DNA of 28,844 nt from positions 1-28,844 of IMG/VR virus record IMGVR_UViG_3300042691_004832; one strand, given 5' to 3'. The translations under genes and the position numbers were made by a program. This document shows positions 18,689 to 28,844 of the stretch, piece by piece; position 1 is the first letter of the stretch; each line of letters opens with the position of its first letter. The notes below the pieces were generated by a model that made no database searches, was not told where the DNA came from, and saw only the letters and a program-made list of their open reading frames with translations. Origin of the DNA: a virus.

Positions 18689-18922
18689 CTATTTTACTAG
18701 TGCGTTGGCTTCTTCTTCAGTTAGGCCAAGGGCTAGTAGTTTTGCTATACCACTGGCTTTGACGGCTGCTGCTGCCTCTGCTGCTGCAATACGCTCTGCT
18801 TCTGCTACAGCAAATGCTGCTGCATCTGCCTCACGCTGTGCGATTTCTTCGGCGGTAAGCGGAACAATTGTTTGTTCTTTAGTTTCACAATTGATCACTA
18901 ACTTAGTTAATGGTTCTGACAT
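18689..18922 (-). CDS. Small Ala-rich helical protein
   Basis: 77 residues: a short beta start (SEPLTKLVINCETKEQTIVP), then an Ala/Glu-rich helix (about residues 25-60) and a C-terminal helix LGLTEEEANALVK. I recall this layout from small genes within tail clusters, possibly an assembly helper; the family is not named. AAAGGAGG stands 6 bases before the ATG. It follows the three LYGIK paralogues and ends just before the promoter of the next gene. Confidence 0.65.
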   Translation of the reverse strand: MSEPLTKLVINCETKEQTIVPLTAEEIAQREADAAAFAVAEAERIAAAEAAAAVKASGIAKLLALGLTEEEANALVK

Positions 18923-18961: not shown

Positions 18962-19480
18962 CTATGATTTCTTAATGCCGTAAAGTGTAGCAATGGTGCC
19001 AGTGTTATAATTTTGAAGATTGTCAGTTTTCAAAACAATAGAAGTAATAGCGCTTGTTTGCGACCATAACCCTGCTATCATATGTATATATGCTAGTGTT
19101 GCGTTAGTTTCAGAAGCCGAATCTACCGAATATGCTTTATAGTTACTAGAAGTGTATTCTGGTATATAGACCATTTTATTGCTATAAGTGTTAGCAGTTG
19201 CGCCATTGCCAGGCATACCGCCAATAAAGCCGCCTTGACCTGAATAAGCATTACTCCCCTGAAGCGCACTACTACCATTACCGTATGCATAAATATTACT
19301 ATAATCTTGGTCAACATTATTAAAACTCATTGTCTCATCTGAAAATGTTCCTGCCACTACGCTTCTTGCTGAAATCATAAGGCATAAATCAGTATAAGTT
19401 TGTGGTATAGAAGAAAAAGTTATACTTCCTGTTGGTGAAGTTACCGTGACTGTTGCTATTGGTTCGAAAGTATTTGCCAT
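18962..19480 (-). CDS. LYGIK-type small virion beta protein, paralogue 3
   Basis: 172 residues. Begins ANTFEPIATVTVTSPTGSIT, FSSIPQTYTDLCLMISAR, and ends IATLYGIKKS, the same frame of landmarks as its two tandem neighbours (PIAT...TFS(S/N)IPQTYTDL ... (L/A)YGIK). The middle differs freely: Tyr, Ser and Gly-rich loops. A beta-sandwich with variable loops, a plausible tail or fibre-tip protein. It ends the three-gene tandem set, 4 bases after the previous stop. Confidence 0.75.
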   Translation of the reverse strand: MANTFEPIATVTVTSPTGSITFSSIPQTYTDLCLMISARSVVAGTFSDETMSFNNVDQDYSNIYAYGNGSSALQGSNAYSGQGGFIGGMPGNGATANTYSNKMVYIPEYTSSNYKAYSVDSASETNATLAYIHMIAGLWSQTSAITSIVLKTDNLQNYNTGTIATLYGIKKS

Positions 19481-27535: not shown

Positions 27536-27644
27536 TTTTATCTACCTCGCTTTTTTCGTAATGTGTTCTGTCATAGTTAGCAAGTGTCCCACCATTGGCT
27601 AGGTGGGCTATCCTGCGTAATTGTTCATCTGAGTAAGTAGCCAC
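27516..27644 (-). CDS. Candidate 42-residue protein
   Basis: A GTG start at 27644 shares its first base with the last base of the upstream stop (TAGTG), and the frame then stays open for 42 codons: ATYSDEQLRRIAHLANGG, TLANYDRTHYEKSEVDKNE. Soluble, charged, probably a helix then a polar tail. No ribosome-binding site before the GTG, so it would depend on coupling with the gene upstream. The stop overlaps the start of the 60-residue gene by 20 bases. The frame is seen; expression is inferred. Confidence 0.5.
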   Translation of the reverse strand: MATYSDEQLRRIAHLANGGTLANYDRTHYEKSEVDKNETNNN

Positions 27645-27754
27645 TATGCTACACACTCGCAAGGCTCAACGCCGTAATCATCGTTATCTCCGTAGAAAAT
27701 AACGCCGTGCCCGTAGCACTCATCGCAATTTATTCTTTCTAATGCGTTTATCAT
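27644..27754 (-). CDS. 36-residue Cys-rich protein (CxxC and CxC)
   Basis: 36 codons from ATG 27754. INALERINCDECYGHGVIF, YGDNDDYGVEPCECVA: a CxxC pair at 10-13 and CxC at the end, four cysteines that could bind one zinc. GAAAGGATA lies about 8 bases before the ATG. Its promoter-like site (TGTCAG-N10-TACACT) lies 24 bases upstream, inside the 3' end of the preceding gene. Its stop is coupled (TAGTG) to the next candidate gene. Family not recognised. Confidence 0.65.
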   Translation of the reverse strand: MINALERINCDECYGHGVIFYGDNDDYGVEPCECVA

Positions 27755-27774: not shown

Positions 27775-27933
27775 TTAAAGTGTAGCAGGGGCTACTGACA
27801 TAGCCTCTACTGTAAATCCGTAAGCCACTAGGCTATCCATAAGGTCATTTATCTGACGCTCATTTATCATCAACATATTTGATGTTGTAAGTATTGTATC
27901 CTCTTTGGATACTGTGTAATTTAGTGTTAGCAT
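27775..27933 (-). CDS. 52-residue protein of unknown function
   Basis: 52 codons from ATG 27933: LTLNYTVSKEDTILTTSNML, MINERQINDLMDSLVAYGF, TVEAMSVAPATL. No Cys; a helical middle. AGGTAG lies before the ATG and a TGTCAG-N10-TAGAAT site 35 bases upstream. The last 9 codons double as the promoter site for the 36-residue gene. Function unknown. Confidence 0.65.
   Translation of the reverse strand: MLTLNYTVSKEDTILTTSNMLMINERQINDLMDSLVAYGFTVEAMSVAPATL
27779..27800 (-). promoter_or_regulatory. TGTCAG-N10-TACACT promoter-like site, copy E
   Basis: TGTCAG at 27795-27800, exactly 10 bases, TACACT at 27779-27784 (minus strand; preceded by TGC). 24 bases before ATG 27754. Lies within the C-terminal codons of the 52-residue gene. 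Confidence 0.6.
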
Positions 27934-27968
27934 TTTTGCTACCTAACCTTTCTTTTTGTTATACTGTA

Positions 27969-27990
27969 ATTCTATCTGTTGCCACTGACA
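27969..27990 (-). promoter_or_regulatory. TGTCAG-N10-TAGAAT promoter-like site, copy A
   Basis: TGTCAG at 27985-27990, 10 bases, TAGAAT at 27969-27974 (minus strand), followed by TACAGTATAA. 35 bases before ATG 27933. No classical -35 hexamer. The stretch from here to 28030 also holds small GC-rich hairpins (GGGGTAGCCCC at 28008-28018, and GTGTGA/TCACAC at 28017-28034). Confidence 0.6.
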
Positions 27991-28029
27991 TTTTGGGGGG
28001 TCTGTGGGGTAGCCCCTGTGTGATTTACC

Positions 28030-28140
28030 TCACACTCTAGAGGCTATTAGCCCCTCTATACACTTATCGCATAGGGCAGGAATACTGCGCTTAGAGACAT
28101 AGGCTTGAGAGCCACAAGTTAGACATGGTTTCTTTATCAT
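28030..28140 (-). CDS. 36-residue double CxxC zinc-binding protein
   Basis: 36 codons from ATG 28140. IKKPCLTCGSQAYVSKRS, IPALCDKCIEGLIASRV: two CxxC pairs (residues 6-9 and 25-28) 15 residues apart, a zinc-ribbon or treble-clef spacing. GAAAGGA lies before the ATG; a TGTCAG-N10-TAGAAT site is 35 bases upstream, the same distance as for the 52-residue gene. It is likely a small metal-bound regulator or adaptor; the family is not recognised. Confidence 0.68.
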   Translation of the reverse strand: MIKKPCLTCGSQAYVSKRSIPALCDKCIEGLIASRV

Positions 28141-28175
28141 GTTGAAATCCTTTCTGTTAATTTCTTATACTGCGT

Positions 28176-28197
28176 ATTCTACACGCTATCACTGACA
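28176..28197 (-). promoter_or_regulatory. TGTCAG-N10-TAGAAT promoter-like site, copy B
   Basis: TGTCAG at 28192-28197, 10 bases, TAGAAT at 28176-28181 (minus strand), followed by ACGCAGTATAAG. 35 bases before ATG 28140. TTGAAA lies 17 bases upstream of TAGAAT, the only copy with a classical -35-like hexamer. Confidence 0.6.
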
Positions 28198-28212
28198 TTT
28201 TCAAGTCTGCCG

Positions 28213-28281
28213 TCGGCGTGTCGCAAGGTATTTTTTGTGGCGTTGCTCACACCCTGCCCACCCCCGAGGTCGGGCGTGTCG
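28213..28281. repeat. Two copies of TCGG(G)CGTGTCG in a GC-rich patch
   Basis: TCGGCGTGTCG at 28213-28223 and TCGGGCGTGTCG at 28270-28281. A third, inverted copy (CGACACGCCCGA) lies at 28742-28753. They stand out in AT-rich DNA and flank the plus-strand small genes. Candidate protein-binding sites. Confidence 0.5.
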
Positions 28282-28439
28282 TGCCCCGGGGATGTCCGTT
28301 TTGCACCATTTGCCTATGTGATTCAATTCACAAAAATAGTTTTTTGCAATGTCCGATTTGTCATACTTACTCGCTAGTAGATGTCAGTGCCCCCTGTTAT
28401 ACTTCCAGTATAGAAAATAAAGAAAGGAGTTCAAAATGA
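28281..28439 (+). CDS. Doubtful 52-residue Cys-rich frame
   Basis: GTG 28281 opens a frame to TGA 28439, overlapping the next ATG as ATGA. The product starts PRGCPFCTICLCDSIHKN and continues SFLQCPICHTYSLVD: two CxxC pairs 15 residues apart and a CLC, a zinc-ribbon look. GAGG lies 11 bases before the GTG. The frame is open further upstream (to GTG 28218), but over a GC-rich repeat patch. It also contains the promoter site at 28382-28403. The Cys pattern and ATGA overlap argue for it, the start and codon use against. Confidence 0.35.
   Translation: MPRGCPFCTICLCDSIHKNSFLQCPICHTYSLVDVSAPCYTSSIENKERSSK
28382..28403 (+). promoter_or_regulatory. TGTCAG-N10-TATACT promoter-like site, copy C
   Basis: TGTCAG at 28382-28387, 10 bases, TATACT at 28398-28403 (preceded by TGT), then TCCAGTATAGAAAATAAAG and the ribosome-binding site GAAAGGAG. 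32 bases before ATG 28436. Confidence 0.65.
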
Positions 28440-28630
28440 ACTTACTAAATAATAACTTCTACAAAGTTCCTAACGGATACTTTCAGATTAGTAATAACAC
28501 TAATCTAAATTGCGACCATAAAGGTTTCGCAGATAAAAAAGGTTTTACTTTCTCTAATGGTAAAACTTCAATAATCAGAACTTGCGAAAGTTGTGGTTCT
28601 GAAAAAAGATTTAGTTCTTACAAAAAATAA
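28436..28630 (+). CDS. 64-residue protein with CxxC motif, unknown function
   Basis: 64 residues from ATG 28436, with AAAGGAG 6 bases upstream. NLLNNNFYKVPNGYFQISNN, LNCDHKGFADKKGFTF, IIRTCESCGSEKRFSSYKK. Asn- and Lys-rich with one CxxC pair near the C-terminus plus Cys26 and His28 as possible further metal ligands. No signal peptide or membrane segment. Own promoter of the TGTCAG type. The gene ends 66 bases before a DnaA-box cluster. Family not recognised. Confidence 0.68.
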   Translation: MNLLNNNFYKVPNGYFQISNNTNLNCDHKGFADKKGFTFSNGKTSIIRTCESCGSEKRFSSYKK

Positions 28631-28649
28631 TAACTAAATAAAAAATTCT

Positions 28650-28669
28650 CTGCTAATAAAAATTAGTAG
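28650..28669. terminator. Hairpin, possible terminator
   Basis: CTGCTAAT, AAAA loop, ATTAGTAG: an 8-bp stem (one G-T). On the minus strand it is followed by AGAATTTTTTATTT, so it fits a leftward terminator. On the plus strand no T-run follows the stem, though it lies 20 bases after the 28436 gene. Confidence 0.45.
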
Positions 28670-28683
28670 AAAATTCCCGGGGG

Positions 28684-28730
28684 CTTTCCACAGGGTTATC
28701 CACAGCCTTAAGATGTGAGGTTTATCACAA
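28684..28730. promoter_or_regulatory. DnaA-box cluster, possible replication origin
   Basis: TTATCCACA at 28696-28704 is a perfect consensus DnaA box. Next to it are CTTTCCACA at 28684-28692 and TTTATCACA at 28721-28729, near-matches in the same direction. They lie in a non-coding, AT-rich stretch (28631-28844). A host DnaA site used for phage replication or for transcription control is possible. Only one box is perfect. Confidence 0.45.
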
Positions 28731-28767
28731 AAAAAGATTTCCGACACGCCCGAAATACAGGGCAAAA

Positions 28768-28789
28768 TGTCAGACCCCCCTGTTAGACT
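28768..28789 (+). promoter_or_regulatory. TGTCAG-N10-TAGACT promoter-like site, copy D
   Basis: TGTCAG at 28768-28773, 10 bases, TAGACT at 28784-28789 (preceded by TGT), then TACAGTATCAAAATT. It points out of the window to the right, so it should serve a gene beyond 28844. Confidence 0.55.
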
Positions 28790-28844
28790 TACAGTATCAA
28801 AATTAAATAGTGCTAAATGAGCCTAGCAAATAAGTCTAGAAATA

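Follow-up and report, generated by a model that had tools for sequence, protein, structure and literature searches.

A dense class of predicted PafBC-type promoters in the small-gene region of environmental phage genomes

The viral record IMGVR_UViG_3300042691_004832 (the window below, i.e., the whole record, a linear phage fragment of 28,844 bases) contains five exact copies of the motif TGTCAGN10TANANT. We report that, with a probability of roughly 85%, each such site would be a sigma-A promoter of the type controlled by PafBC, the activator of the RecA-independent DNA-damage response (RecA-NDp). The published PafBC motif is TGTCGG-10xN-TA-3xN-T with the variants TGTCAG and TGTCAC, and its direction is essential (PMC8151990). 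All five window sites conform to it, and at the level of sequence the phage motif is the published PafBC promoter letter for letter. The original prediction, made from the letters of the window, had suggested that a regulator of TGTCAG be sought but had missed this identity. What is new is a dense class of such predicted promoters in the small-gene region of many viral records, accompanied by phased CRP-type palindromes; no paper on PafBC promoters in phages was found in the open-licence literature.

The window sites are listed below with the distance from the -10 hexamer to the ATG and, where present, the small open reading frame (ORF) that they face.

27779–27800, minus strand: predicted PafBC-type promoter core TGTCAG-N10-TACACT with TG before the -10; AAAGGA ribosome-binding site (RBS), 24 nt to the ATG; faces the ORF at 27644–27754.
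27969–27990, minus strand: predicted core TGTCAG-N10-TAGAAT; 35 nt to the ATG; faces the ORF at 27775–27933; CRP-type palindrome at offset -44.
28176–28197, minus strand: predicted core TGTCAG-N10-TAGAAT; TTGAAA 17 bases upstream of the -10; 35 nt to the ATG; faces the ORF at 28030–28140.
28382–28403, plus strand: predicted core TGTCAG-N10-TATACT with TG before the -10; 32 nt to the ATG; faces the ORF at 28436–28630.
28768–28789, plus strand: predicted core TGTCAG-N10-TAGACT with TG before the -10; 27 nt to the ATG; leader cut by the contig end.
27644–27754, minus strand: small ORF, 36 aa, behind the site at 27779–27800.
27775–27933, minus strand: small ORF, 52 aa, behind the site at 27969–27990; its end contains the site at 27779–27800.
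28030–28140, minus strand: small ORF, 36 aa, behind the site at 28176–28197.
28436–28630, plus strand: small ORF, 64 aa, behind the site at 28382–28403.

The exact pattern occurs five times in the window against 0.08 expected (100 dinucleotide shuffles, largest count 1), the reversed control pattern has no match there, and all five sites crowd into the final 1.1 kb. The coordinates and strands given in the original prediction are all correct, and its observation holds. With one mismatch permitted, the excess in the window by itself is weak (seven matches versus 3.4 expected, with 6 of 100 shuffles reaching seven), so that the exact matches and the relatives have to carry the case. A sixth, relaxed match at 18921 resembles a gene start reading ATGTC[AG]G. 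Several details of the original description hold as well: CAGTAT follows four of the five sites at 2–3 bases, and the two copies said to lie 35 bases from their ATG are the second and third sites. The GAAAGG-type RBS is present at four sites and missing from the fifth, where the contig ends within the leader. The class as a whole marks small genes; the fifth site precedes no recognizable small gene within the window.

The spacing between the box and the -10 hexamer is rigid. In 17 stretches (15 fetched regions, contig L091, and the window), TANNNT follows TGTCAG at a gap of 10 bases 106 times, whereas each of the other gaps between 0 and 35 occurs 0–21 times, 29 of these 35 gaps having counts under six. 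The highest of the latter, 21 at a gap of 5, is consistent with an overlap between TATGnT and the TG preceding the -10. After 20 further regions were added, and sites near region ends and identical 48-mers removed, a set of 259 distinct sites from 37 sources was obtained, of which 31 contain at least one site; all regions except the window were picked via a motif match or via the 64-aa gene. The box reads TGTCAG in 246 sites and TGTCGG in 13. The consensus comprises A/T at positions -2 and -1, TGTC[A/G]G, a C- or G-rich segment, and TANNNT at 16–21, with TG at 13–14, i.e., before the -10, in 172 of the 259 sites. A weak T-A-T at offsets 27–29 is start-like; if its A is +1, the box lies at -28 to -23, which fits the "-26 promoter motif" on which PafB has been placed (PMC11804915).

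The association with gene starts is equally pronounced. A strict RBS followed by ATG within 108 nt downstream is found at 195 of the 259 sites versus 6% of random positions, and under a looser rule at 219 of 259 versus 28%. Among all TGTCNN hexamers with a gap of 10 and a downstream RBS and ATG, TGTCAG accounts for 184 cases, TGTCGG for eight, TGTCAT for four, TGTCGC for three, TGTCCC for two, and five further variants, TGTCAC among them, for one each. These data bear out the original interpretation of the sites as a promoter family located at gene starts, in which TGTCAG is not an ordinary -35; the best reading is that an activator element adjoins a -10 that is often extended.

Asymmetric sites that recur in many copies and are oriented with transcription are also typical of the stoperators bound by repressors of cluster A mycobacteriophages (PMC9283540), and TGTCAG might accordingly be taken for a phage repressor operator overlapping many promoters. 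We consider this very unlikely. Stoperators are scattered, whereas here the box is tied to a -10 at exactly 10 bases: of 480 TGTCAG occurrences in the 37 stretches, 249 are situated 10 bases before T-A---T, and the remaining 231 show no excess away from promoters (median of 245 for hexamers of the same composition). A repressor would not need such rigidity. Moreover, 50 kb of the phage TipsytheTRex contain no TGTC[AG]G-N10-TANNNT.

In the reading as PafBC-type promoters, TGTCAG at about -28 to -23 would be the -26 motif, and TANNNT 10 bases on an ordinary -10, often with TG. According to published structural work, PafBC is activated by single-stranded DNA (ssDNA) in its WYL domains and sits between the promoter and sigma-A domain 4, with PafB on the -26 motif and PafC on domain 4 (PMC11804915). 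By this mechanism the host heterodimer, with ssDNA bound, would insert between sigma-A domain 4 and the DNA, PafB would read the box, and the housekeeping polymerase would start at the site. The small-gene region of the phage would thereby be placed under a host DNA-damage activator and be switched on by ssDNA arising in phage replication or in the breakdown of host DNA. We infer that the small-gene class is an early one. Compared with mycobacterial PafBC promoters, the phage sites have the same TGTC[AG]G-N10-TA-N3-T, orientation to the gene, and canonical -10, and their box would likewise lie near -26 (PMC8151990, PMC11804915). They differ in being found in phages rather than chromosomes, in forming a dense class within one small-gene region, in the frequent TG before the -10 (172 of 259), in the phased upstream CRP-type palindromes, and in preceding genes other than repair genes.

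The promoter class is shared by many viral records. The 64-aa ORF has relatives in six viral contigs, and TGTCAG-N10-TANNNT precedes the gene in all six loci, two of which (L088 and L089) are nearly identical; further such sites surround the gene in the relatives. The window also encodes a portal protein and a protein whose named-phage relatives are annotated as ribonucleotide reductase (RNR). In 46 viral records searched whole (40 of 80 RNR contigs and the six contigs with the 64-aa ORF), TGTCAGN10TANANT was present in 16, with 67 matches in total versus four for the reversed control; a few of the 67 are coincidental gene starts, e.g., TGTCAGCAAATGTCTATACAAT. The flanks of the RNR genes of relatives yielded four matches outside the window, all coding-like, and the small-gene region lies outside those flanks. 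When all IMG/VR contigs were scanned with TGTCAGNCCCNNNTGNTANANT, at least 120 stretches were returned, and eight with the gap lengthened by one base to 11. A protein of phage record G071 that matches the window at 27644–27754 recovers 14 of the 24 groups into which the motif-bearing sequence falls, the window included.

The density of sites raises the question of decoys. Twenty-eight records longer than 40 kb, picked for at least one stricter match in the IMG/VR scan, contain 324 TGTCAG-N10-TANNNT sites, most of which share one strand within a given record; the reversed control occurs 10 times. Such numbers would suit sites that draw PafBC (and CRP) off host promoters and blunt the host DNA-damage response, the downstream genes being secondary. 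A decoy, however, needs neither a -10, often with TG, nor a start-like consensus, nor an RBS and ATG nearby, and the sites are complete promoters in this sense; hence we regard this possibility as slight. Still less credible is a copied repeat lacking any function. While some sites are identical over all 22 bases (TGTCAGACCCCCCTGTTATACT in G017, G023, G043, and G044), 482 of 680 sites are left after removal of those with an upstream stretch more than 70% identical to a kept one, and these non-redundant sites keep the box, the gap, the -10, and the phased palindromes.

Upstream of the PafBC-type cores, about half of the sites have a CRP-type palindrome. The dyad TGTG-N8-CACA is present upstream of 232 of the 482 non-redundant sites (pattern-found loci included), where shuffled sequence would give 1.4. 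With no more than one mismatch allowed, TGTGAN6TCACA was found within 260 bases upstream of 132 of 226 non-redundant sites, compared with 43 of 2260 random windows from the same regions. The palindrome starts cluster at -65/-64, -54/-53, and -44/-43, with lesser peaks at -49 and -34. Of 12 periods compared, 10.25 bases is the strongest (R 0.69, from 251 palindromes that precede 481 sites), although the p-values for phasing treat as independent sites that are not. In G071, 12 of 12 palindromes are localized in the first 40 kb and none in the remaining 72 kb. Such a palindrome precedes four of the five window sites (offsets -44, -54, -65, and -54); one of the four has a mismatch, and the others are perfect. 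For the remaining site, at 27779–27800, the closest palindrome is more than 200 bases upstream. The upstream elements in the window are the following.

28019–28034, no strand: CRP-type palindrome TGTGATTTACCTCACA, starting 44 bases upstream of the box of the site at 27969–27990, a favoured position.
28236–28251, no strand: CRP-type palindrome with one mismatch, starting 54 bases upstream of the box of the site at 28176–28197.
28317–28332, no strand: CRP-type palindrome TGTGATTCAATTCACA, starting 65 bases upstream of the box of the site at 28382–28403.
28714–28729, no strand: CRP-type palindrome TGTGAGGTTTATCACA, starting 54 bases upstream of the box of the site at 28768–28789.
28215–28223, minus strand: CGACACGCC box at offset -26 from the box of the site at 28176–28197, a favoured place.
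28742–28750, plus strand: CGACACGCC box at offset -26 from the box of the site at 28768–28789.
28350–28355, plus strand: TGTCCG box at offset -32 from the box of the site at 28382–28403, a favoured place.
28367–28380, plus strand: TTACTnGCTAGTAA-type palindrome with one mismatch, directly upstream of the site at 28382–28403.
28696–28704: DnaA-box-like TTATCCACA near the promoters.

In CRP class I promoters, TGTGAN6TCACA is likewise located upstream at positions one helical turn apart. Here the palindrome centres would be at about -64.5, -74.5, and -85, some 3 bases from the class I positions of E. coli CRP, and they are combined with a PafBC-type box. A CRP-type protein of the host, bound to the phased palindromes, would help at about half of the promoters. 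No cNMP-binding domain was found in 36 phage records. In 20 genomes of the sampled order, TGTGAN6TCACA outnumbers its control (30 versus 7). The presence of a CRP in the host is likely rather than established, as the HTH_Crp_2 domain used to recognize it is also found in all control genomes.

Other boxes also have favoured offsets, namely -26 for CGACACGCC, -18 for GGCGTGTCG, -32 and -23 for TGTCCG, near -22 for TTACTnGCTAGTAA, and near -44 for TGAGCGTCTCA. Only three of the 114 sites that have no palindrome within 110 bases carry one of four fixed boxes. GACAC is present upstream of 61 of 226 sites versus 264 of 2260 random windows, and GTGTC upstream of 90 versus 237, each with a favoured place. 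WhiA binds GACAC (PMC3781837), and these boxes may possibly be WhiA sites. LexA-like TCGAACN4GTTCGA boxes (9 of 226 sites versus 12 of 2260 windows; seen in L250 and L251) and DnaA-box-like TTATCCACA (40 of 226 versus 106 of 2260 on one strand, 27 versus 110 on the other) are enriched as well, with no single fixed place.

The host machinery expected for PafBC-type promoters was sought by domain. The WYL domain is found in none of 36 phage records and in all hand-picked actinobacterial genomes (4 of 4 taken from a genome scan and 14 of 14 from the order of genome G047), as well as in 7 of 14 control genomes. By coordinates, strong tandem WYL pairs occur in 14 of the 18 actinobacterial genomes, and a fifteenth, G106, has a weaker one. 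In the one pair compared, from G048, the PafC chain of 7p5x is the match of one protein and that of the other is a "transcriptional regulator-like protein" chain (7p5x, 9fnd), while both match the PafBC chain 6sj9; E-values across the structure matches range from 1.8e-23 to 2e-29. WhiB, a key indicator of actinophages (PMC10202952), is above the cut-off in 21 of 40 records.

Several observations weigh against PafBC-type promoters as the explanation. Firstly, the per-record counts are inflated, since the analyzed regions were mostly chosen for a motif match, and 13 of the 259 sites resemble mere gene starts reading ATGTC[AG]G; in G071, two of the sites listed (20457 and 36192) are, judging from their position, gene starts. 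Secondly, PafBC promoters reportedly have no -35, whereas a -35-like hexamer (at least four of six letters) is present with a spacer of 17 in 60 of the 259 sites and of 18 in 35, compared with 0–13 sites at each of the twelve other spacers tried. Thirdly, the genes behind the sites are small ORFs without a recognized function (10 window proteins scanned) rather than repair genes. Fourthly, among named phages that share single genes with these records, the whole genome of DSL-LC01 does not have the class, and Annadreamy, Gaia, TipsytheTRex, Dorin, and NootNoot show only 0–2 scattered matches in the roughly 50 kb covered per phage; thus, the class is not general among actinophages. Finally, that the hosts are Nanopelagicales-like actinobacteria is a guess from WhiB and the title of one record, and TGTCAGN10TANANT is not enriched in 60 genomes of the Nanopelagicales order (46 versus 49 for the reversed control). 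HTH_Crp_2 was found in 14 of 14 picked actinobacterial genomes (13 above the cut-off) and equally in 14 of 14 controls, archaea included.

The lack of enrichment of the sites in the sampled host order, together with their density in the phages, would also be expected if a phage-encoded activator read TGTCAG and redirected host sigma-A, as MotA does with AsiA in T4. The sites would then be a "middle" class, and their likeness to PafBC promoters a matter of convergence or of shared sigma geometry. Phage records do carry WhiB, and WhiB1, WhiB3, and WhiB7 bind sigma-A region 4 (PMC6282962). T4 middle promoters use the host polymerase, as the present ones would, and pair a phage box with a sigma-70 -10, about half of them with TGn (PMC2988021); in both classes an extra box replaces or accompanies the -35. 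The MotA box, however, is TGCTT, 12 ± 1 bases from the -10 and centred at -30 (PMC6755090, PMC2988021), and the letters and spacing found here (TGTCAG at exactly 10 bases) are not those of T4. They are, including the G variant and the 10-base gap, those printed for PafBC. In addition, DSL-LC01 is annotated with two WhiB genes yet has no such site, and no other phage regulator was recognized among the scanned proteins, i.e., 10 of the 174 predicted in G071 (one weak HTH_17 match) and 10 of the window (one weak HTH match). We therefore judge a phage activator improbable, and the activator is most likely that of the host.

The original prediction had also considered an alternative sigma factor. 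This idea finds no support, as Sigma70_r4 is above the cut-off in none of 36 phage records, with four weak matches, bearing in mind that the records may be fragments. More generally, the spacing, the letters, and the PafBC literature render the MotA-like, WhiB/WhiA, stoperator, and alternative-sigma readings less likely. Sigma-54 and single-subunit polymerase, weighed by reasoning alone, are also less likely.

A scan of genomes for the motif returned at least 120 stretches, and the 80 listed have one match each, as by chance (with no gap control). By eye, some of the actinobacterial matches among 20 inspected of these 80 look like real promoters. In the Arthrobacter-type chromosomes L274, L276, L326, L330, and L333, a TGTCAGCCCC- or TGTCAGTCCC-type site and similar sequence precede apparently one gene; by the same visual inspection, this is perhaps a PafBC-type promoter. 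L308 (CAMBGL010000012.1, titled Bifidobacterium breve, a name that is probably wrong) has a promoter-like site in common with the bin of L292.

The original prediction had set the TGTCAG sites apart from TGnTATAAT and from genes that it named as fibre genes. In the window, TGTCAG sites indeed coincide with none of the 12 TGnTATAAT sites. These 12 sites (minus strand at 988, 6610, 10176, 12652, 13800, 17899, 17936, 21571, 24682, 26123, and 26589; plus strand at 19003) are mostly situated directly before ORFs and likely represent a separate promoter class. G071 contains 20 TGnTATAAT sites outside the TGTCAG class versus 11.6 by shuffling. The small-gene region of G071 includes, among larger proteins, GP88 (PF17338; L400:456-1205) and DUF932 (PF06067; L400:3432-4436); relatives of GP88 are found in 373 named phage records, mainly of Mycobacterium and Streptomyces phages.

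A repeat pair, TGAGCCTAGC[AG]AATAA, a short hairpin, and TGAGCCTAGC[AG]AATAA again, often separates these promoters from the gene start that follows. There are 33 distinct cases, e.g., at 28818–28844 of the window (cut by the contig end), L088 4121+, L090 6674-, and L091 3500+. The hairpins vary in their letters, and many are weak, down to -0.1 kcal/mol. No Rfam match to the pair was found in the four sources searched; it is a possible new leader RNA.

On a broader and more tentative view, which we hold at somewhat less than even odds, environmental actinophages have wired their small genes into the stress and nutrient sensing of the host. PafBC would provide the core switch. About half of the promoters would receive a second input from a CRP-type protein on a phased site, and some would receive further inputs through LexA-, DnaA-, and other boxes, so that each gene would have its own combination of inputs, with feedback from DNA synthesis and breakdown.

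If the assignment to PafBC is true, a widespread group of environmental phages drives a whole gene region from the RecA-independent DNA-damage activator of the host, and a known actinobacterial sigma-adaptation system becomes tied to phage infection. The promoters would offer a sequence-based route to such gene regions and to the matching of phages with PafBC-bearing hosts, while normal expression of these genes should not be possible in hosts without PafBC. With their phased CRP-type palindromes, the sites constitute a natural promoter library for two activators acting at one polymerase.

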